A DNA stretch of 64,000 nucleotides. Origin: Gracilimonas sediminicola (GTDB lineage Bacteria; Bacteroidota; Rhodothermia; Balneolales; Balneolaceae). Each line of letters starts with the position of its first letter. The stretch's first letter is position 1. The translations under genes were made by a program, and so were the position numbers. This document shows, one piece after another, positions 2,339 through 13,072 of the stretch. The DNA lies in the NCBI RefSeq assembly GCF_024320785.1, contig NZ_JANDBC010000002.1, positions 310,001 through 374,000 of the forward strand, written 5' to 3'. The notes beneath the pieces were generated by a model. The model made no database searches and had not been told where the DNA came from. It was given only the letters and a program-made list of their open reading frames with translations.

Positions 2339-2581
2339 TTACTGATACACTTCCAGGTTCTCCATTGCCTTTAATAGGGCTTTGTACTCTTCTCTGCATT
2401 CTCCGCATTTCTCCAAGTGCTCTTTAACCAGTGGCTTGGCTTTTTCGGGAGATTTCCCCAACAGCTCCATCTCGGCAAACTCGTGAATCTCATCAAAGCA
2501 TTCCCCACATCCCAGCTCATGCTCATGCGTAGCCTTTACGCTGCTTACTAATATTTTTATGATCTGTTTATTCAATTTCAT
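2339..2581 (-). CDS. Small zinc-binding anti-sigma factor-like protein
   Basis: 80 residues, soluble, no membrane helix. Cys25-x2-Cys28 and the later His55-x3-Cys59-x2-Cys62 recall the zinc-binding anti-sigma (ZAS) fold, in which the H-x3-C-x2-C motif packs against an ECF sigma factor. The gene lies 47 bp downstream of and in the same direction as the ECF sigma gene at 2629-3270, the usual sigma/anti-sigma order. As it lacks a transmembrane segment it would sense a cytoplasmic signal, possibly redox or metal through its cysteines, in the manner of RsrA/ChrR; that is inference. Partnership with the sigma factor rests on adjacency and the Cys/His motif only. Confidence 0.7.
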   Translation of the reverse strand: MKLNKQIIKILVSSVKATHEHELGCGECFDEIHEFAEMELLGKSPEKAKPLVKEHLEKCGECREEYKALLKAMENLEVYQ

Positions 2582-2628
2582 TTTTATATATCTCTTGCCT
2601 TATCCTGATGAGTTGTCGCTTCCATTTC

Positions 2629-3270
2629 TTACATCTCCTCCAAAAGTTTTTCCGGATCAATACCTTCCAACTCCAGGCTGTTTTTCAACTTCAGGCGGGC
2701 ATCGTGCACCAGCTTATAAATCGCATTTCGGTTCGTATCCATTTTATCCGCCACAACCGTTAACGGTATCTGATCTATAATTAAATACTGAAGCACCGTT
2801 TTCTGTTTTTCAGTGAGTTGCTCGTTCATCACTTTCATCACTTTCTCAACGGCCATCGACTCATGCGCAATCTGATCGGGCAAAGCTTCTTTCTCTTCAA
2901 TCTCAACCGCATGCTCTTTCTCTCCTTTTGGATTCACGTAATCTTGCAGGGAAATATCATCGTATCGTTTCCTCCTGAGCTCGGTATAGCCTTCTCTCAC
3001 TGCTATTTTCATGGCCCAGGTTGTGAATTTACTCTCTCCGCGAAAGGTATCCAGCTTGTCGAGAATTTTCAGAACGGAATCCTGGGCTATGTCTTCCACA
3101 AAATCGCCCAGATTTTTATCAACGTACTTATACAGAGAGGCTTTCAATCCCCTCACTAGGTAGGCTCTCAGCTTTGAGATGGCGGCATCTTCCGGCGGTG
3201 GAGACAGCGCTTCAATCCATTCTTCGTTTGTAAAAGAAGAAGCTGATTTCTTTTTAAACCAATTGAACAT
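2629..3270 (-). CDS. ECF-type RNA polymerase sigma factor
   Basis: 213 residues. Region 2 is recognisable (FVEDIAQDSVLKILDKLDTF then FTTWAMKIAVREGYTELRR, the helices that bind core polymerase and the -10 element), and region 4 near residues 140-200 shows LTEKQKTVLQYL followed by an HTH (LTVVADKMDTNRNAIYKLVHDARLKLK). The N-terminal 30 residues and the linker between the regions (about 105-140, rich in Glu and Lys) are longer than in minimal ECF factors. It is followed by a small zinc-binding anti-sigma-like gene, which fits a regulated pair. Its target promoter cannot be read here. The flavodoxin-like gene ends 109 bp upstream on the same strand, so an own promoter is likely. Confidence 0.9.
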   Translation of the reverse strand: MFNWFKKKSASSFTNEEWIEALSPPPEDAAISKLRAYLVRGLKASLYKYVDKNLGDFVEDIAQDSVLKILDKLDTFRGESKFTTWAMKIAVREGYTELRRKRYDDISLQDYVNPKGEKEHAVEIEEKEALPDQIAHESMAVEKVMKVMNEQLTEKQKTVLQYLIIDQIPLTVVADKMDTNRNAIYKLVHDARLKLKNSLELEGIDPEKLLEEM

Positions 3271-5586: not shown

Positions 5587-5938
5587 TGTTCTGTACCTAA
5601 AATTTCATGTTGTTTGGTTAGCTAACATTTGGAAATTAGAAACAGTTCTGCAAGTAGAAATTTTTTTGCGAACCGATTTCTCTAACAACCCATCCGCTCC
5701 GACGCAGGGCATCAGAGTGAGTAATTACCAAAACTTCAGAGTAAATACTATTCAGGGGATTCGTTAATCCTGTAAATCATAGTTCAGAACCCGGGCAAGA
5801 GCTCTGTTTACAAGGCAAACAAGGCACAGGCCCACATTAACCTCAATGTATTATTTAGAGTACATTTTATGCAATAATTTTATATATACATCAAATATTG
5901 ACGGTTTTCTGGGTGGTATAACACTGACTTCTCTGCTT
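5587..5938. other. Intergenic region (352 bp) between PTPS and the RsbW-like gene
   Basis: Divergent promoter region. It holds a composite repeat copy at 5692-5793 (listed separately) and AT-rich DNA around 5846-5900. No TAnnTTTG box was found on either strand and no small gene stands out. An open frame extends upstream of the chosen start at 5939 as far as 5846, but its residues do not match the kinase family and it is treated as non-coding. Confidence 0.6.
5692..5793. repeat. Composite intergenic repeat, copy 1
   Basis: The 26-bp block at 5692-5717 matches 25 of 26 bases at 13127-13152, and both copies end in a related block near TAAATCATRGTTCARAACCCG (5770-5793 and 13184-13205). The spacer between blocks differs. 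The first block is itself an imperfect palindrome (CTCCGACGC against GCATCAGAG). Confidence 0.75.
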
Positions 5939-6343
5939 ATGAAAATTACGGGTACTTTTAAACGGGATGTTGATGAATTACAGAACATATTCGACTTCCT
6001 TAAAAAAAATTGGGCGGGTTATGAGGTCAATGAAAATGATCAACGAAAGATTGAATTATCCGTTGAAGAAATTTTCATGAACATGGTTCGGCATAATCCG
6101 AATGCAGAGTTTGATATTAAACTAATAGTTGAAAAAAAGAATCGTAAGATTATATTAAGCCTGAGTGATTTTGAAGAAAAGCCATTTGATATAACTCAAG
6201 CGAGAGATGTTAACTTTGAGGAATATTTCAGGCAAAAAAAATCCGGGGGATTGGGTATTCACCTGGTTAAAGAAATTATGGATGATATCAAGTTTGTTCA
6301 TCGGAACGGGATATCGACCATAACAATCACAAAATTGATTTAG
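5939..6343 (+). CDS. RsbW/SpoIIAB-like anti-sigma serine kinase (HATPase_c_2)
   Basis: 134 residues from the ATG at 5939. It has the GHKL ATPase boxes of the RsbW family: N-box EEIFMNMVRHN near residue 45-55 and G-box GGLGIHLVKEIMD near 105-115. Such proteins bind a sigma factor or regulator and phosphorylate a STAS-domain antagonist; the very next gene, 10 bp on, is a STAS protein, so a partner-switch pair is clear. The ECF sigma gene at 6717 follows after a terminator-like hairpin; ECF factors are not the usual RsbW targets, so the switch may act on another protein. The open frame extends 31 codons upstream to 5846, but those residues are unlike the family. Confidence 0.85.
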   Translation: MKITGTFKRDVDELQNIFDFLKKNWAGYEVNENDQRKIELSVEEIFMNMVRHNPNAEFDIKLIVEKKNRKIILSLSDFEEKPFDITQARDVNFEEYFRQKKSGGLGIHLVKEIMDDIKFVHRNGISTITITKLI

Positions 6344-6352
6344 GGTTTTTAC

Positions 6353-6640
6353 ATGCTGAAGATTGAAGAAGTAAGTGAAAACGAGTTAAAGTTTATTGGT
6401 GAGTTTAGTGCAAGTCAGGAAAGCATTGCTTCTGATAAGCTTTCTGAGCATGAAGAGACTTTGACCATTGATATGGGGGAATTAAAATACATTTCAAGCA
6501 TGGGGTTAGGGGTGTTGGTAAAAACAAACCACAGGCTGAATGAAAACGGGCACTCGCTCAGGTTAAAAAACCTGAACAGTCATATTAAAGATATTTTCAA
6601 ATTTACCCGCCTTGACCAGGTATTTGATTTAATCGATTAG
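6353..6640 (+). CDS. STAS-domain anti-sigma factor antagonist
   Basis: 95 residues, a single STAS domain. The signature region is LTIDMGELKYISSMGLGVLV, where the Ser-Ser-Met-Gly-Leu-Gly stretch (DxSxxxSxGLG pattern) holds the serine that the kinase partner phosphorylates. Unphosphorylated antagonist binds the kinase and frees its target. Directly downstream of the RsbW-like gene with a 9-bp gap, so co-transcribed. A terminator-like hairpin follows at 6647, separating this pair from the ECF sigma gene. Confidence 0.88.
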   Translation: MLKIEEVSENELKFIGEFSASQESIASDKLSEHEETLTIDMGELKYISSMGLGVLVKTNHRLNENGHSLRLKNLNSHIKDIFKFTRLDQVFDLID

Positions 6641-6646
6641 GTAAGG

Positions 6647-6672
6647 CGCGGCCTGTAAAGCAGGCCTTTATT
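6647..6672 (+). terminator. Terminator-like hairpin after the STAS gene
   Basis: GGCCTG and CAGGCC form a 6-bp GC-rich stem with a five-base loop, followed by TTTATT. The T-run is short, so read-through into the sigma gene is possible. A second small hairpin (GCTTTCA/TGAAAGC) sits at 6676-6694, 22 bp before the sigma start. Confidence 0.6.
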
Positions 6673-6716: not shown

Positions 6717-7238
6717 ATGGCTGATGTAGGTGACTATGATCTTATCAAACGTTGTCTGAATGGGGACAATAGTGCTTTTGACCTTTTGGTAAAGCGATAT
6801 GAGCGCCAGATGTACAGAACAGCATGGGGTATTGTTAAAAACTCAGATACAGCCAAAGATATAACCCAAACTGGATTTCTGAAGTGCTGGAAAAAGCTGC
6901 ATACCTACAACCCTGATTTTAAATTTTACAGCTGGCTGTATCGAATAATGGTAAATGAGTCTCTTAATCACCTAAGAAACAAAAAAACACATTCCAGCCT
7001 GTCACTGTATCATAGTAGCGGAGAAAACCCTTATTTAAAATTATTAAAAAAAGAGGAAAACAGAATTCTGGCGAAATGTATTGGTGAGCTGCCTACAGAT
7101 TATCGGGTTGTAATCCAATTAAGACATTTCGAAGAACTAAGCTATAAAGAAATTGCAGGCATTTTGGACATAGAACCCAGAACAGTAAAATCGCGATTAT
7201 ACACGGCAAGAATTCAATTGCGTGAAAAACTGCTTTAG
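6717..7238 (+). CDS. ECF-type RNA polymerase sigma factor paired with a membrane anti-sigma protein
   Basis: 173 residues, the usual ECF size. Region 2 (FDLLVKRYERQMYRTAWGI, then DITQTGFLKCWKKL and YSWLYRIMVNESLNHLR) and region 4 (LPTDYRVVIQLRHFEELSYKEIAGIL, RTVKSRLYTARIQLREKL) are complete. It resembles the SigW/RpoE-like group that answers envelope stress. The next gene, 102 bp on, encodes a membrane protein with an anti-sigma-like N-terminus, so it is the likely regulator. Upstream lie a kinase and STAS antagonist of the partner-switch type. No consensus target promoter could be read. Confidence 0.92.
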   Translation: MADVGDYDLIKRCLNGDNSAFDLLVKRYERQMYRTAWGIVKNSDTAKDITQTGFLKCWKKLHTYNPDFKFYSWLYRIMVNESLNHLRNKKTHSSLSLYHSSGENPYLKLLKKEENRILAKCIGELPTDYRVVIQLRHFEELSYKEIAGILDIEPRTVKSRLYTARIQLREKLL

Positions 7239-7340
7239 CTACTTTTTATATCATTTTTATCGGGATACAAAAACTTACCAACTTTTTCCAATTTGTGGTG
7301 TACTTAAAGTAAACAATACCAATTCGACAGTAGATATTAG

Positions 7341-8960
7341 ATGGAACAGGAGCTTATATACTTAATTCAGGCTGAAATTGACGGGGAAAACTCAGCAGCA
7401 CAAAGCCTGAAAGTGAAAAAAATTCTGGAAGAAGACCAGGAAGCAAAAGCTCTTTATGACGATCTATTAAAAATTTCAAAAAACATTAAAAAACTTGGAT
7501 CGGAAATCGATCCTTCTGAGTCCATCTCAGCCCGGGTACAACAAGAAATAGTAAATGAATCATGGGTTTACGGGGTACAATCTAATTCTAACATCAATCA
7601 TAAACATAATAATGGGGACACTATGTCTGAATCAAACAAACTATTTTCGGGTCAAAATATAGCCTCTGCGCTTGTAGGAGCAGCCGTTGCTCTTTTGGTA
7701 GTTTTTATTACCGGAATGCCACAACCAAATCAAAGTGATGTAAGCGGGACAATCGGAGGAGACCCGGTTGAACGTGCCGAAAGGTATCGGGGAACACAAA
7801 TGACGCATGCAGATATTTCTCTGGATGACGAAGAATTTCAGCAGGTTTTACAAAGCGATGTTTTTATCGACTTGGTAGAATCGGGTGAGTTAAAGAAGCT
7901 CTCTCAAAATGAAGCTTTTGTCCAGCTAATGGCCAGTCCTGACTTTAACCAGCTGTTTGCAAGTCCGGAATTCAATCAACTGATAGCAAGTCCTGATTTT
8001 TCTCAGCTTATGTCAGAAGCCTCTTTCAATAAACTGATGGCAAGTCAAAGCTTTAATCAATTAATTGCAAGCGCAGCTTTCAATGAGTTAATGGCAAGCC
8101 CGGATTTCAGTCGTCTTGCAGCAAGCGCGGAGTTTAATGGGTTAATGGAATCACCTGAGTTTATACTGCTCACAGCCAGTCCCGATTTTAACCGGTTGGC
8201 AGAGAACCCCTCTTTCAACTCATTAATGGCAAGCCCTGACTTTAGTCAGCTTTTAGCAGTACCTGATTTCAGTCGCCTAATTGCGAACCCAAATTTTAGC
8301 CGCTTAATGGCAAATCCTGACTTTAACCAGCTTACTGCTGCTGCGGAATTTAATCAACTTGCAGCAAGTGCTGAATTTAACCGTTTGATGGCAAGCCCAA
8401 ATTTCAGCAGCCTGATGGCTAACCCAACATTCACCCAGTTAATGGCGAATCCAGACTTCAACAGATTAGTTTCCAGTCCTGGTTTTAACAATTTAATGTC
8501 CAGCGCCAGCTTTAGCAGACTGATCGCCAGTCCTGATTTTAGTCGCCTGGTTGCCAGTCCTGAATTTAGCCAATTAATGGCAAACCAGGGTTTCAGCCGA
8601 TTGGTTGCAAGTCCTGAATTCAGCCGATTAATGGCCATTCCCAGCTTTAACAGTTTGATGGCCAGCCCAGATTTCAGCCGACTCATGGCAATTCCGAATT
8701 TTAGCCAGCTCATGGCAAGTCCCGACTTCAACCGGCTTGTATCAAGTCGGGAATTTAATCAGCTCTTGGCTAGTCCTAATTTTAGTATGCTGATGGCCAG
8801 TCAAAACTTCAGACAGCTAATGGCGATGCCGAACTTCAGCCAATTGCTGGCAAGTCCGAACTTCAACCAGCTGATGGCAAGCCCTAATTTCAGCCGGTTA
8901 ATGGCCAATCCTAATTTCCATAGAATGGTTGCAAGCCCTGAGTTTGATCAAAGGCTATAA
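7341..8960 (+). CDS. Membrane anti-sigma-like protein with about 40 nine-residue extracytoplasmic repeats
   Basis: 539 residues in three parts. Residues 1-75 are a charged helical cytoplasmic region (MEQELIYLIQAEIDGENSAA...) of the kind found in anti-sigma factors next to ECF genes; no zinc motif is present. Residues about 105-126 form one transmembrane helix (ASALVGAAVALLVVFITGM), giving N-in, C-out topology. From residue about 170 to the end the chain is an unbroken array of nine-residue units with consensus (M/x)-A-S-P-(D/E/N)-F-(N/S)-(R/Q)-L. I count 38 clear units from residue 197 and two or three degenerate ones before. Phe and Leu are almost invariant; the SPD/E step looks like a helix cap. 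I do not know a family with this repeat. The outer array may bind a partner or envelope polymer (inference). Read-out of the ECF factor rests on adjacency. Confidence 0.8.
   Translation: MEQELIYLIQAEIDGENSAAQSLKVKKILEEDQEAKALYDDLLKISKNIKKLGSEIDPSESISARVQQEIVNESWVYGVQSNSNINHKHNNGDTMSESNKLFSGQNIASALVGAAVALLVVFITGMPQPNQSDVSGTIGGDPVERAERYRGTQMTHADISLDDEEFQQVLQSDVFIDLVESGELKKLSQNEAFVQLMASPDFNQLFASPEFNQLIASPDFSQLMSEASFNKLMASQSFNQLIASAAFNELMASPDFSRLAASAEFNGLMESPEFILLTASPDFNRLAENPSFNSLMASPDFSQLLAVPDFSRLIANPNFSRLMANPDFNQLTAAAEFNQLAASAEFNRLMASPNFSSLMANPTFTQLMANPDFNRLVSSPGFNNLMSSASFSRLIASPDFSRLVASPEFSQLMANQGFSRLVASPEFSRLMAIPSFNSLMASPDFSRLMAIPNFSQLMASPDFNRLVSSREFNQLLASPNFSMLMASQNFRQLMAMPNFSQLLASPNFNQLMASPNFSRLMANPNFHRMVASPEFDQRL
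7929..8957 (+). repeat. 27-bp tandem coding repeat array (about 38 units)
   Basis: The DNA is a tandem array of diverged 27-bp units coding for the nine-residue repeat. Codon use differs between units, so the array is old or under selection at the protein level rather than freshly expanded. Unit length stays exactly 27 bp over the entire stretch, with no frameshift. Confidence 0.9.
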
Positions 8961-9007
8961 AATTCATCCATTTATTCAAACATAGAAGCTAACTGCTGCG
9001 GCAAATC

Positions 9008-9047
9008 AAGAATGGCCCTTTAATCGGGGTCATTCTTTTGTTTTTTA
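9008..9047 (+). terminator. Terminator after the repeat anti-sigma gene
   Basis: AAGAATGGCCC pairs with GGGGTCATTCTT (one mismatch) around TTTAATC and is followed by a T-rich tract broken by a single G. It separates the sigma/anti-sigma unit from the metalloprotease gene. Confidence 0.7.
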
Positions 9048-9102: not shown

Positions 9103-12051
9103 TTGGGTTATGCAAGCAAATTTATTTTGGGAGGTCTCATACTCTTATTATTTCAATCCTTTGCCTTCGGGCAGTACAAAACGGTAAAAACGGAAGATCT
9201 GAACCTTGTTTATTATAATTTCGGGCATGAATACCTCATCAACCACACAATCCGAAGCTACACCAACGCACTCGATTTCCATAAAGATAAGTTTAACTAC
9301 CAGGTTACTGAGCCGGTAACGGTGATAATGTCCGATTTTGGTGACTTTGCGCAGGGTGGTGCCTCAGCCGTACCTAATAATGTGATTTTGATGGGAATAG
9401 CTCCCTTCCATTATGCATACGAGACCAACCCCGCTAATGAACGAATAGGTGTGCTGATGAAGCACGAGTTGGTTCATATAATCGCTCAGGAGAAATCATC
9501 TTCAGCTGATCGTTTTTATCGTAAACTGTTTGCCGGTAAAGTTTTCCCTGATCGGGACAACCCCGTTTCTATGCTATACAGCTACCTGACGGTGCCCCGG
9601 ATTTTTTCCCCAAGATGGTACCATGAAGGTATTGCTGAGTATATGACCACGTGGATGTCGGGCGGCATCGGACGAGTAATGGGCGCATATGACGAAATGA
9701 TGTTCCGGACTATGGTGCGCGACTCTTCCTATATTTATGATGCCGTTGGGCTGGAGTCAGAAGGCACCACTACCGACTTTGAAGCCGGTGCAAATTCCTA
9801 CATGTATGGCACCCGCTTTATGGCTTACCTGTCTTACCAATATGGACCGGAATCTTTACTTGAGTGGGTTTCCCGGGATGACGACAGTAAAAGATTTTAT
9901 GCCCGACAATTTGAGCAGGTTTACGGAAATTCATTAGATGATGAATGGTCTGAATGGATAGAATGGGAAAAAGAATGGCAACAAAATAATCTGGCTAACA
10001 TCAGAAGGAATCCGGTTACAGAGAGAACCTTACTCTCAGAAACACCCATTGGAGGTGTTTCTTCAGCTATCTATGCAAAAGAATTGAATAAAATTATTTT
10101 TGCAGCTGATCTCCCGGGCCAGATTGCACATATCGCTTTGTTAGATCCAAGAACGGGGGGAATGGAGCGTGTTGCAGATATTAATGGATCTGCTCTCTAC
10201 TTCGTTAGTTCATTAGCCTATAATGCTGACGGCCAAACGATATTCTATACCAATGATAATAACGGCTGGCGTGATTTATTTGCCGTAAACATAGAAACCG
10301 GCAACTCAAGGCAATTGATAAAAGATCTGCGCGCCGGAGATCTGGTGTTCAATCCCAATGACCGATCTCTTTGGGGAGTCAGGCATTTAAATGGCATTGT
10401 ATCCTTAATTCGCATCCCGGAGCCATATACAGAATGGAACCGAATCCATTCCATGCCTTATGGTGAAGATCTCTTTGATATCGATATCTCTCCCGACGGC
10501 AAATATTTGAGTGCTGCTATCGGTGATGTGCAAGGCCTGCAAAAGCTGGTCATGATGAGTACCGACTCTTTAATGCAGGGGAAATTTGAGCCTAAGGAAA
10601 TCTATGATTTCGAAGTGAGTTCCCCCGCCAGTTTTAAGTTTTCTAAAGATGGAAAGTTCTTGTTTGGTTCCAGCTATTACTCCGGTGTATCAAATATTAC
10701 CAGATATGACATCGAAAACGATCAAATGGAATGGCTTACCAATGTAGAAACCGGTTATTTCAAACCTATTCCCATTACGGATGACACCCTCATGGCGTTC
10801 GAATATACGGGAAAAGGATTCTTACCTGTACTCATTGAGAACAAGCCTGCGGAAAGAGTAAGTGCCATTAATTTTCTTGGGCAAGAAATAGTTGAAAAGC
10901 ACCCCGTTGTTATAGACTGGATGCTTCCCCCGCCTTCTCCCGAAAAGTATAACGTGGATGAATTACGGACGGGACAATCCGATTATACACCTTTCTCAAA
11001 CATGGCTTTAACCTCGGCCTACCCTATTATTCAGGGATTCAAAGACTATGCCGCAGCCGGAATGCGATTCAATTTCAACGACCCACTCAGGTTTCACAAT
11101 TTGGGCATTGCACTATCTTATTCCCCCTATTCCAGTCTGGCCGGTGATGAAAGATTCCATGCTTCTTTTTCCTATGAAGCTCAAAAGTGGAGATATTTCG
11201 GTAACTATAACGGAGCTGATTTCTATGACCTTTTTGGCCCTACCAAACAGTCACGTAAAGGGTATTCCATTGGATTGGGAAGAAATTTTCAACTGATGGA
11301 CGAGGTTGATAAAACGCTTACGGCTGATTTAAGTACCGCTTACTATGGTGGGATGGAACGACTGCCAAGTTTCCAGAATGTAATTACCTCTTTTTCTGAA
11401 TTCGTTTCTCTTTCGGGCAGTTTATCTTATAAAGCCATGTTGGCATCATTAGGAGCAGTGGATTATGAAAAAGGATGGGGTTGGGAGCTGCAGACCTATC
11501 ACAATTATGTTGAGGGCACTTTATTTCCGAGGGTAAATCAAAATTTGGACTATGGAATTGCATTGCCTATTCACCACTCTTCCATTTGGCTAAGGTCTTC
11601 GGCAGGCATTTCATTCTCCCCCAGAAGAGAGCCTCTTGGCAACTTCTATTTTGGAGGATTTGGTAACAACTGGATTGATTACAAACCCAGTAAAAGATAC
11701 CGATCGCCACAGGCTTTTCCCGGTGCGGATCTAAACCAGGTTGGCGGTACCAATTATGGAAAACTGATGGTGGAATGGTCCCTCCCACCTGTGCGATTTA
11801 AAAGGGCCGGTTTTATGAACCTATATGCTAACTGGGCACAACTTAATCTATTCACCACAGGATTACTCACCAACATAGATGATGATACCTTTTTGCAACG
11901 ATATTACAATGCCGGGGCACAGTTAGACTTCAGGTTATCCGTCATTTCCATCTTGGAATCTACCTTTTCAGTAGGTTATGCCTCTGCCTGGAACGATATT
12001 GCAGGCACCCGCAGTGATGAACTGATGATTTCATTAAGATTGATGAGATAA
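9103..12051 (+). CDS. Secreted HELVH metalloprotease / beta-propeller / outer-membrane barrel protein
   Basis: 982 residues starting at TTG 9103, with GGAG 7 bp upstream supporting this start. Residues 1-23 are a signal peptide ending AFG-Q. The N-terminal domain (about 25-300) is a gluzincin-type peptidase: H121-E-L-V-H125 binds zinc and WYHEGIAEY (Glu175) gives the third ligand, as in peptidase MA-like proteins. Residues about 320-620 carry WD40/TolB-like blades (SPDGKYLSA, FSKDGKFLFG). The last 330 residues (from about 650) have alternating aromatic/polar strands and end in LMISLRLMR, resembling a surface-antigen barrel. It would be an outer-membrane-anchored protease facing the periplasm or surface. 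The prsW-like gene follows after 16 bp, so the two are co-transcribed. Confidence 0.85.
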   Translation: MGYASKFILGGLILLLFQSFAFGQYKTVKTEDLNLVYYNFGHEYLINHTIRSYTNALDFHKDKFNYQVTEPVTVIMSDFGDFAQGGASAVPNNVILMGIAPFHYAYETNPANERIGVLMKHELVHIIAQEKSSSADRFYRKLFAGKVFPDRDNPVSMLYSYLTVPRIFSPRWYHEGIAEYMTTWMSGGIGRVMGAYDEMMFRTMVRDSSYIYDAVGLESEGTTTDFEAGANSYMYGTRFMAYLSYQYGPESLLEWVSRDDDSKRFYARQFEQVYGNSLDDEWSEWIEWEKEWQQNNLANIRRNPVTERTLLSETPIGGVSSAIYAKELNKIIFAADLPGQIAHIALLDPRTGGMERVADINGSALYFVSSLAYNADGQTIFYTNDNNGWRDLFAVNIETGNSRQLIKDLRAGDLVFNPNDRSLWGVRHLNGIVSLIRIPEPYTEWNRIHSMPYGEDLFDIDISPDGKYLSAAIGDVQGLQKLVMMSTDSLMQGKFEPKEIYDFEVSSPASFKFSKDGKFLFGSSYYSGVSNITRYDIENDQMEWLTNVETGYFKPIPITDDTLMAFEYTGKGFLPVLIENKPAERVSAINFLGQEIVEKHPVVIDWMLPPPSPEKYNVDELRTGQSDYTPFSNMALTSAYPIIQGFKDYAAAGMRFNFNDPLRFHNLGIALSYSPYSSLAGDERFHASFSYEAQKWRYFGNYNGADFYDLFGPTKQSRKGYSIGLGRNFQLMDEVDKTLTADLSTAYYGGMERLPSFQNVITSFSEFVSLSGSLSYKAMLASLGAVDYEKGWGWELQTYHNYVEGTLFPRVNQNLDYGIALPIHHSSIWLRSSAGISFSPRREPLGNFYFGGFGNNWIDYKPSKRYRSPQAFPGADLNQVGGTNYGKLMVEWSLPPVRFKRAGFMNLYANWAQLNLFTTGLLTNIDDDTFLQRYYNAGAQLDFRLSVISILESTFSVGYASAWNDIAGTRSDELMISLRLMR

Positions 12052-12067
12052 AATAAAATTTGCGAGC

Positions 12068-13072
12068 ATGATCCAGGTTTTAGAGTTTAGTTTTGCCCTT
12101 TTGCCCATAGTCATTTTTCTGATTGGCATGTGGATGCTTGACAGCTTTCAGCTTATAAAAACAAGAGAAGTGATAATCACCATTCTCTTTGGATTCTTAA
12201 TAGCCGGTATAGCTGTACTGTTTCATGGAACCATTCTGAATAATACAGGTATTGACAGAGCGGCGTTATCCAGGTATATAGCACCGGTTAGTGAAGAGTT
12301 TTTAAAATTTCTCCCTGTTATTTTTCTGATTGTGACTCGTAGGGTCGGGTTTATGGTAGATGCTGCAATTTTTGGCCTGGCTGTAGGAGCCGGATTCGCC
12401 ATTATTGAAAACCTGTATTACCTTAGAGCATTAGAAGAAGCTACTTTGATCACCTGGTTTGTACGGGGATTCGGCACAGCTATAATGCATGGTTGTACAA
12501 CAGCCATCGCAGCTATCATCAGTAAGGATTTATTCGATACTAAAGACTGGCCGGCTATGCTTTCATTTGTCCCCGGTTTCCTGCTCGCTGTGGTACTGCA
12601 TGCTTTATTTAACATGTTTCTGCTGCCACCTACTACTTCAGCCTTACTCATCACCATTTCTTTACCGCCTGTTTTATACCTCGTATTCAAGAAAAGTGAG
12701 GCTCACACCCGCTCCTGGCTCGGCACCGGGCTCGACAGTGACATGGAGCTGTTACAAATCTTATTAGCCGGCAATATCTCACAGACAAGAATTGGAGGAT
12801 ATATTCAATCTATACGTGATAAGTTTCCGCCGGCAGTAGTAGGCGATATTATTTGCTACTTACGCGTTTACCTGGAGCTATCCATTAAAGCAAAAGGCAT
12901 TCTGATTATGAAAGACAGTGGTGTGGAGTTACCTCCCGATCCAGATGTTGAAGCTCAGTTTGAAGAACTTGAATACCTGGAATCACAAATTGGAAAAATT
13001 GGGCTTCTTGCCATCCAGCCTCTTTTAAAGATTGACAACACGGATCTATGGCAGCTATCTCTAATGCGTTAG
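12068..13072 (+). CDS. PrsW-family intramembrane metalloprotease
   Basis: 334 residues with about eight membrane helices in residues 1-225 and a soluble tail. The family motifs are visible: E76-E77-x2-K80 in SEEFLKF, F110-x3-E114 in FAIIENLYY, His141 in AIMHGCTTA, and His178 in VVLHALFNMF. PrsW of Bacillus cleaves the anti-sigma factor RsiW at site 1 and so frees an ECF sigma factor (established). Here it sits in the same gene neighbourhood as an ECF sigma factor and a one-helix membrane anti-sigma-like protein, which makes that protein its most likely substrate (inference). It is the second gene of a two-gene unit with the secreted metalloprotease. The C-terminal 110 residues are a soluble extension of unknown role. 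Confidence 0.88.
   Translation: MIQVLEFSFALLPIVIFLIGMWMLDSFQLIKTREVIITILFGFLIAGIAVLFHGTILNNTGIDRAALSRYIAPVSEEFLKFLPVIFLIVTRRVGFMVDAAIFGLAVGAGFAIIENLYYLRALEEATLITWFVRGFGTAIMHGCTTAIAAIISKDLFDTKDWPAMLSFVPGFLLAVVLHALFNMFLLPPTTSALLITISLPPVLYLVFKKSEAHTRSWLGTGLDSDMELLQILLAGNISQTRIGGYIQSIRDKFPPAVVGDIICYLRVYLELSIKAKGILIMKDSGVELPPDPDVEAQFEELEYLESQIGKIGLLAIQPLLKIDNTDLWQLSLMR

Follow-up and report, generated by a model that had tools for sequence, protein, structure and literature searches.

A nine-residue repeat array joined to an RsiW-like anti-sigma domain and the conserved gene neighbourhood of the fusion in Balneolales

Gene cluster and nine-residue array

The window, a stretch of 64,000 nucleotides from Gracilimonas sediminicola, carries a gene cluster (Table 1) encoding, in this order, an RsbW-like ATPase, a STAS-domain protein, an ECF sigma factor, a fused anti-sigma/repeat protein, a predicted metalloprotease called here PEP and a PrsW-family protease. 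This order recurs in most Balneolales loci and, with the anti-sigma and repeat proteins as separate genes, in other classes of the phylum. The sigma gene is located directly upstream of the anti-sigma gene in nearly all loci, and within the genus a sigma orthologue (68-100%) is found only in the three of ten genomes that carry the repeat gene. Equally, the linkage of PrsW to the anti-sigma gene is conserved across loci, and in L085 PrsW adjoins the anti-sigma gene although the repeat gene and PEP are absent. In two genomes with missing PEP, G065 and G102, the arm is missing or degenerate (proteins of 84 and 277 amino acids, respectively; the G102 genome is 84% complete). In four loci (L032:2378-3655, also L033, L035 and L036) a GAF-SpoIIE phosphatase gene follows 3' of PrsW, which suggests a partner-switching branch together with the RsbW-like and STAS genes. 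Elsewhere in the window, a second sigma-like gene stands beside a small Cys/His-containing anti-sigma-like gene (2339-3270, reverse strand), and a hairpin of the terminator type is located between the STAS and sigma genes (6650-6666, forward strand). A search of a defence-system library gave no match.

Table 1. Genes, protein segments and candidate signals of the cluster, in window coordinates
Feature	Position	Strand	Basis
RsbW-like HATPase (HATPase_c_2), first gene of the conserved cluster	5846..6343	+	Pfam PF13581, 9e-14; precedes STAS and sigma in most loci
STAS-domain protein, anti-sigma antagonist-like	6353..6640	+	PF01740, 1.3e-10; conserved position
ECF sigma factor	6717..7238	+	Sigma70_r2 and Sigma70_r4_2; SigW model 1.5e-33, under that model's cut-off
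Candidate ECF promoter CCAACTTTT-N11-GTGTA, ~60 nt before the fused gene	7278..7302	+	Conserved position; genome-wide search
Fused anti-sigma/membrane helix/nine-residue repeat protein, 539 aa	7341..8960	+	Stop-free translation
RsiW-like anti-sigma domain without zinc ligands, residues 1-74	7341..7562	+	Profile and structure matches
Degenerate ribosome-binding box GGGGA (7614-7618) and in-frame ATG (7623-7625, codon 95)	7614..7625	+	Probable start of a product without anti-sigma domain
Membrane helix, residues 105-126	7653..7718	+	Sequence; AlphaFold helix 108-123, low confidence
Juxtamembrane segment GTIGG..VERAERYRGTQMTHADISL...QSDxF, residues 136-188, including three weak units	7746..7904	+	Conservation extends to other classes of the phylum
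39 nine-residue units, residues 189-539	7905..8957	+	Phase analysis; modelled as 7-residue helices joined by 2-residue links
Intrinsic terminator between repeat gene and PEP	9001..9046	+	Present in 25/25 loci tested
PEP: signal peptide, HELVH metalloprotease domain, TolB-like propeller, Omp85-like C-terminal barrel (predicted)	9103..12051	+	
PrsW-family intramembrane metalloprotease	12068..13072	+	PF13367, 4.5e-22; conserved position

In the fused protein a presumably cytoplasmic domain is followed by a single membrane helix and a gapless array of nine-residue units with the consensus A-S-P-(D/E/N)-F-(N/S)-(Q/R)-L-M, which extends to the C-terminus. Phenylalanine occupies position 5 in 39/39 units and leucine position 8 in 37/39, while alanine (32/39), proline (28/39) and serine or asparagine (33/39) are less strictly kept and the variation at positions 4, 6 and 7 is confined to D/E/N, N/S and Q/R. 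Forty-one of the 42 phenylalanines after residue 160 share one phase modulo 9 and, since every gap between F..L anchors is a multiple of 9, the periodicity is not due to chance. Residues 162-188 (DDEEFQQVL QSDVFIDLV ESGELKKLS) add three weaker units in the same register, which brings the total to 42. A first-pass annotation of this DNA had described 'about 38-40' or 'about 40' units of the form xASPxFxxL with never-varying length, near-invariant Phe and Leu and variation limited to D/E/N, N/S and R/Q. The array is real, its units are free of insertions and deletions and the pattern of substitutions is as described; the count becomes 39 canonical units, or 42 with the weak ones, Phe is actually invariant with Leu nearly so, and Pro is present in only 72% of the units.

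Between units, the mean identity amounts to 0.57 at the DNA and 0.52 at the protein level, and the array is therefore of old origin and maintained by protein-level selection. The units differ at synonymous sites, which rules out recent slippage as the origin of the array, and the conserved phenylalanines freely use both codons (TTT 23, TTC 18). Compared with G026, dS reaches ~1.08 in the array versus 0.07 in the flanks of the same gene, with Phe/Leu positions unchanged and quiet array ends; other pairs display a similar but smaller silent-divergence excess, and copy number and register are constant despite it. Against the closest relative (L027), window positions 8013-8900 show ~15 times the silent differences of the flanks at the same copy number and with unchanged Phe and Leu. 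Recombination between units or allelic replacement is a possible source of this divergence. Diversity-generating mutagenesis was ruled out, as the spectrum of differences between the window and G026 has no adenine bias.

AlphaFold, run on a three-sequence alignment, predicts 7-residue helices with Ser/Asn-Pro caps joined by two-residue links at a pLDDT of 70-83 over much of the array, and the isolated first half is modelled similarly at lower confidence. Foldseek searches with the low-confidence array models reached a best E of 0.18 with no STI1 among the matches listed, and the only matches that Foldseek and a VIA fold search gave were non-significant ones to designed repeat proteins and TAL effectors. 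The repeat had not been assigned to any recognised family by the first-pass annotation. A described repeat family is nominally matched, as Pfam STI1-HOP_DP (PF17830) scores 39.6 bits on the window array (cut-off 29.1) and 33.6 on L080, and UBQLN1 31.3 on L081, yet this match is not specific because column-permuted nine-residue repeats score equally high (39-63 bits) against STI1 or unrelated families. STI1 membership was set aside as unproven after these controls, as were matches to NCBIfam TPR_END_plus, Ribos_L4 and other weak hits, for which permuted repeats give similar scores, so that no specific known family is matched. While the HOP DP and ubiquilin STI1 domains share short helices, N/S-P caps and spaced hydrophobic residues with the array, they are eukaryotic cytosolic domains of ~55 residues, in contrast to 40 uniform units with no fold match. 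The B-domain of human coagulation factor V, with nine-residue LSPDLSQ-type tandem units, is retrieved by phmmer (E 3.5e-20), but belongs to a secreted protein with another hydrophobic pattern and no Phe-x-x-Leu; the resemblance is one of period and composition, not homology. A literature search found no paper on the gene cluster or on the nine-residue repeat.

Anti-sigma domain, gene fusion and expression signals

A profile of 11 homologous N-termini searched against the PDB found its best match in RsiW of the SigW-RsiW complex (5wuq; E 1.7e-6 over 72 residues), with RseA (1or7_C) as a weak match (E 0.18), and the VIA structural alignment of the predicted N-terminal model placed the RsiW chain 5wuq_D on top with a Z of 7.3, followed by 3.8 in the next row. 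By homology and synteny, the assignment as an RsiW-type anti-sigma domain is well supported, which bears out the earlier description as an anti-sigma-like membrane protein; zinc ligands and the HxxxCxxC (ZAS) motif are absent, with no Cys among the 539 residues of the fused protein. The one helix described earlier agrees with the single hydrophobic segment and with the predicted model. From this topology, the N-terminus would be cytoplasmic and the array would lie outside the inner membrane, and the fused protein probably retains a gene-control factor within the cell.

The repeat protein is present in 28 of 128 Balneolales genomes, with further members in other classes among 395 genomes sampled from the phylum. 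Across the family the unit drifts (ASPDFNQLM, ANPAFAELA, REPAFTELM, KDARFAELA, KNPQFAELA, QSEDFLKAI), but period nine and the aromatic/aliphatic pair are kept. In one species (L057) unit position 3 is Ala array-wide, where the close relatives L056 and L058 have Pro or Val. Outside the array the strongest conservation resides in the juxtamembrane GTIGG..ERAERYRGTQMTxxDVxLE...QSDxF; the motif A.[RK][YV][RS]..[QN] occurs in 33 of 564 surveyed open reading frames, 30 of which are the repeat gene, with looser versions in L092-L094. From the GTIG motif to its end the arm measures on average 369 +/- 41 residues (n=30 proteins), a length compatible with the earlier proposal that it could cross the periplasm.

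In L080, L082, L083, L084, L092 and L094 a separate anti-sigma gene with its own membrane helix precedes the repeat gene, while in Balneolales both are fused in one frame, which points to a link between the two. The outgroup anti-sigma factors, anchored by a helix of their own, therefore do not require the arm for their function, a point against the explanation given below. The fusion of anti-sigma and repeat protein in L091 is probably independent of that in Balneolales.

All 24 fused Balneolales genes have an ATG in frame a short distance ahead of the membrane helix, and 20 of them a GGAG/GAGG/AGGA box at -18 to -4 of it, whereas such a box occurs at 7% of random positions, in 17 of 134 other ATG genes of >200 aa and in 0 of 21 sigma genes; the 16S tail in G000 contains CCTCC, and a matching ribosome-binding box precedes the stand-alone repeat genes of L080 and L082. 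A second product initiating at codon 95 is likely on these signals, such that two proteins would arise from one gene. Alternatively, ATG and box might be relics of the fusion which give rise to no product, a reading that concerns this one part of the explanation only. It would fit that the ATG stands where these stand-alone genes begin, and that both the window and its closest relative have a degenerate box. On the other hand, Met is invariant at codon 95 in 14/14 representatives amid variable flanking residues, GGAGG keeps its place at -10 to -6 across genomes from three families although it encodes differing amino acids, and such a box is rare elsewhere in the cluster, which makes mere relics improbable. 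No paper describing an internal start in an anti-sigma factor was found in the literature search.

In nearly every Balneolales locus the candidate promoter motif precedes the repeat gene by 37-103 nt, and a close variant precedes the sigma gene in L084 and L094. Exact CCAACTTTT-N11-GTGTA occurs in 20 copies in 24 genomes with the repeat gene, 17 of them at this gene and the other three (G046, G057 and G064; L139, L140 and L141) ~60-107 nt before a gene for an HlyD/MacA-like adaptor, and is found in none of eight control genomes devoid of the repeat gene. Such a near-private motif suggests that the genes served by the sigma factor are chiefly those of its own partners. The motif is also kept in the two genomes lacking a nearby PEP gene, at the gene for an 84-residue anti-sigma domain with no membrane helix in G065 (L042:8001-8255) and at the gene with the short degenerate arm in G102 (L064:395-1228). 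The terminator between the repeat gene and PEP, found in all loci tested, has few counterparts among the controls (3 of 80 shuffles, 0 of 48 other stretches) and suggests that the arm protein should be in excess over PEP. A search of Rfam gave no match.

PEP and its exported partners

Among 12 diverse PEP members, HExxH and a downstream Glu are invariant in 12/12, and domain matches comprise PD40 (4/12), Peptidase_MA_2 (1/12) and, weakly, Omp85_2 (2/12), while the propeller is related to TolB (TolB chains in the PDB). PEP is thus predicted to be an outer-membrane-anchored metalloprotease, whose barrel is suggested by the weak Omp85_2 matches in those two members and whose protease domain may reside either in the periplasm or at the cell surface.

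Directly upstream of PEP, a gene for an exported (signal peptide or membrane helix), long-armed and mostly tandem-repeat protein is present in 46/46 cases, the 46 being the PEP genes with readable upstream DNA (three further ones at contig ends were left out). The partner is a nine-residue array in 27 of these loci; in six (L083, L084, L091-L094) it is a membrane-anchored arm, period-nine-like in L083 and helical or irregular in the others, and in 13 it consists of 15-16-residue tandem repeats such as SGSQLDELGSKYGWVR, of which the complete ones start with a signal peptide. As all readable PEP genes adjoin such a protein, and as the pair also occurs with no sigma, anti-sigma or PrsW gene nearby (L081 and the period-16 group), PEP is the probable partner of the arm. 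Binding of peptidoglycan or of another polymer, as proposed in the first-pass annotation, is not indicated by any domain or neighbour; the neighbourhood suggests an outer-membrane metalloprotease partner instead.

Role of the arm

The explanation which we consider modestly probable as a whole is that of an RsiW-type transmembrane anti-sigma factor with a periplasmic helix array that is a partner or substrate of PEP, PrsW-coupled sigma release and a dual start. In the resting cell, residues 1-74 would hold the neighbouring ECF sigma factor, as homology and synteny suggest, while the array would extend into the periplasm as partner or substrate of PEP, to which the obligate gene pairing points. 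A signal that alters the state of arm and PEP could, by analogy with RsiW and PrsW, lead to periplasmic trimming, cleavage by PrsW and release of the sigma factor, which would then transcribe the repeat gene from its candidate promoter, and PEP and PrsW via read-through, with the terminator 3' of the repeat gene holding the arm protein in excess. The start at codon 95 probably yields an arm devoid of the anti-sigma domain, as the separate outgroup gene does. Against this explanation as a whole, the substrate of PrsW could be a different protein.

PrsW is the site-1 protease of RsiW (PMC3498285). The SigW-RsiW-PrsW system of Bacillus subtilis resembles the cluster in its ECF sigma factor, its single-pass anti-sigma factor with a related N-terminal domain and its PrsW-family protease; in contrast, here the anti-sigma domain is free of zinc-binding Cys/His and fused to a 400-residue repeat arm in a diderm organism, the protease gene is clustered with an outer-membrane-type metalloprotease, and RsbW-like and STAS genes are located upstream. 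In its working, the proposed mechanism is akin to SigE-RseA-DegS-RseP, the envelope-stress pathway in which a membrane anti-sigma factor is read out by envelope proteases, but PEP is a metalloprotease with a propeller and a predicted barrel, whereas the DegS type is a serine protease. Anti-sigma factors normally possess small sensor domains, while here a repeat arm of fairly constant length is found. With a partner of the arm nameable from gene pairing, a route from the outer membrane to a sigma factor becomes testable in a little-studied phylum, and predictions that are clear and cheap follow from the terminator, the near-private promoter and the probable second start of the gene.

The repeat protein might otherwise be structural or surface material that is made in excess and processed or exported by PEP, with the sigma/anti-sigma pair keeping its amount constant via the nearly private promoter. 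The conserved terminator with its predicted surplus of arm over PEP, the concentration of exact promoter copies at the repeat gene, the distant lineages in which the pair occurs without a sigma gene and with a signal peptide replacing the membrane helix, and the fast silent divergence of an array of constant pattern are all consistent with such a role; the anti-sigma fusion in all Balneolales members and the conserved arm length, however, favour a role in signalling or spanning, and we regard structural material as an unlikely, though not far-fetched, function. Quite improbable is an array that acts as a sensor or chaperone surface whose short amphipathic helices bind unfolded outer-membrane protein segments, with occupancy controlling anti-sigma cleavage and PEP degrading the clients: the above-cut-off STI1-type scores, the capped 7-residue helices and the promoter before the HlyD/MacA-like adaptor gene, which fits an envelope-stress regulon, speak for it, but the scores are matched by permuted repeats, the array has no fold match and an unrelated 15-16-residue unit fills the same slot elsewhere, which argues that the fold of the unit is not the conserved feature.

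Beyond the anti-sigma factor with its periplasmic arm, a wider reading, which taken jointly in all its points falls just short of probable, sees arm and PEP as a two-gene module that runs through the phylum, is undescribed in the literature searched and was captured by an anti-sigma factor in Balneolales. Here, an outer-membrane metalloprotease would be accompanied by an obligate exported, mostly tandem-repeat partner that keeps a short AxRYRxxQ-like anchor motif, the unit might have been exchanged between lineages (nine-residue helical; 15-16-residue LGSRYGF type), and the dual-start gene, driven by an almost private promoter, would encode both a free arm and a sensor that holds the sigma factor. 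One metalloprotease family combined with interchangeable tandem repeats would give a new hint as to what many hypothetical repeat proteins do.

For the 15-16-residue repeat proteins upstream of PEP no specific known family was found. Those of L095-L103 and L105-L108 are secreted proteins with near-identical repeats (16 copies of SGSQLDELGSKYGWVR in L099), several of which begin with a VEEATRYRVxQ motif.
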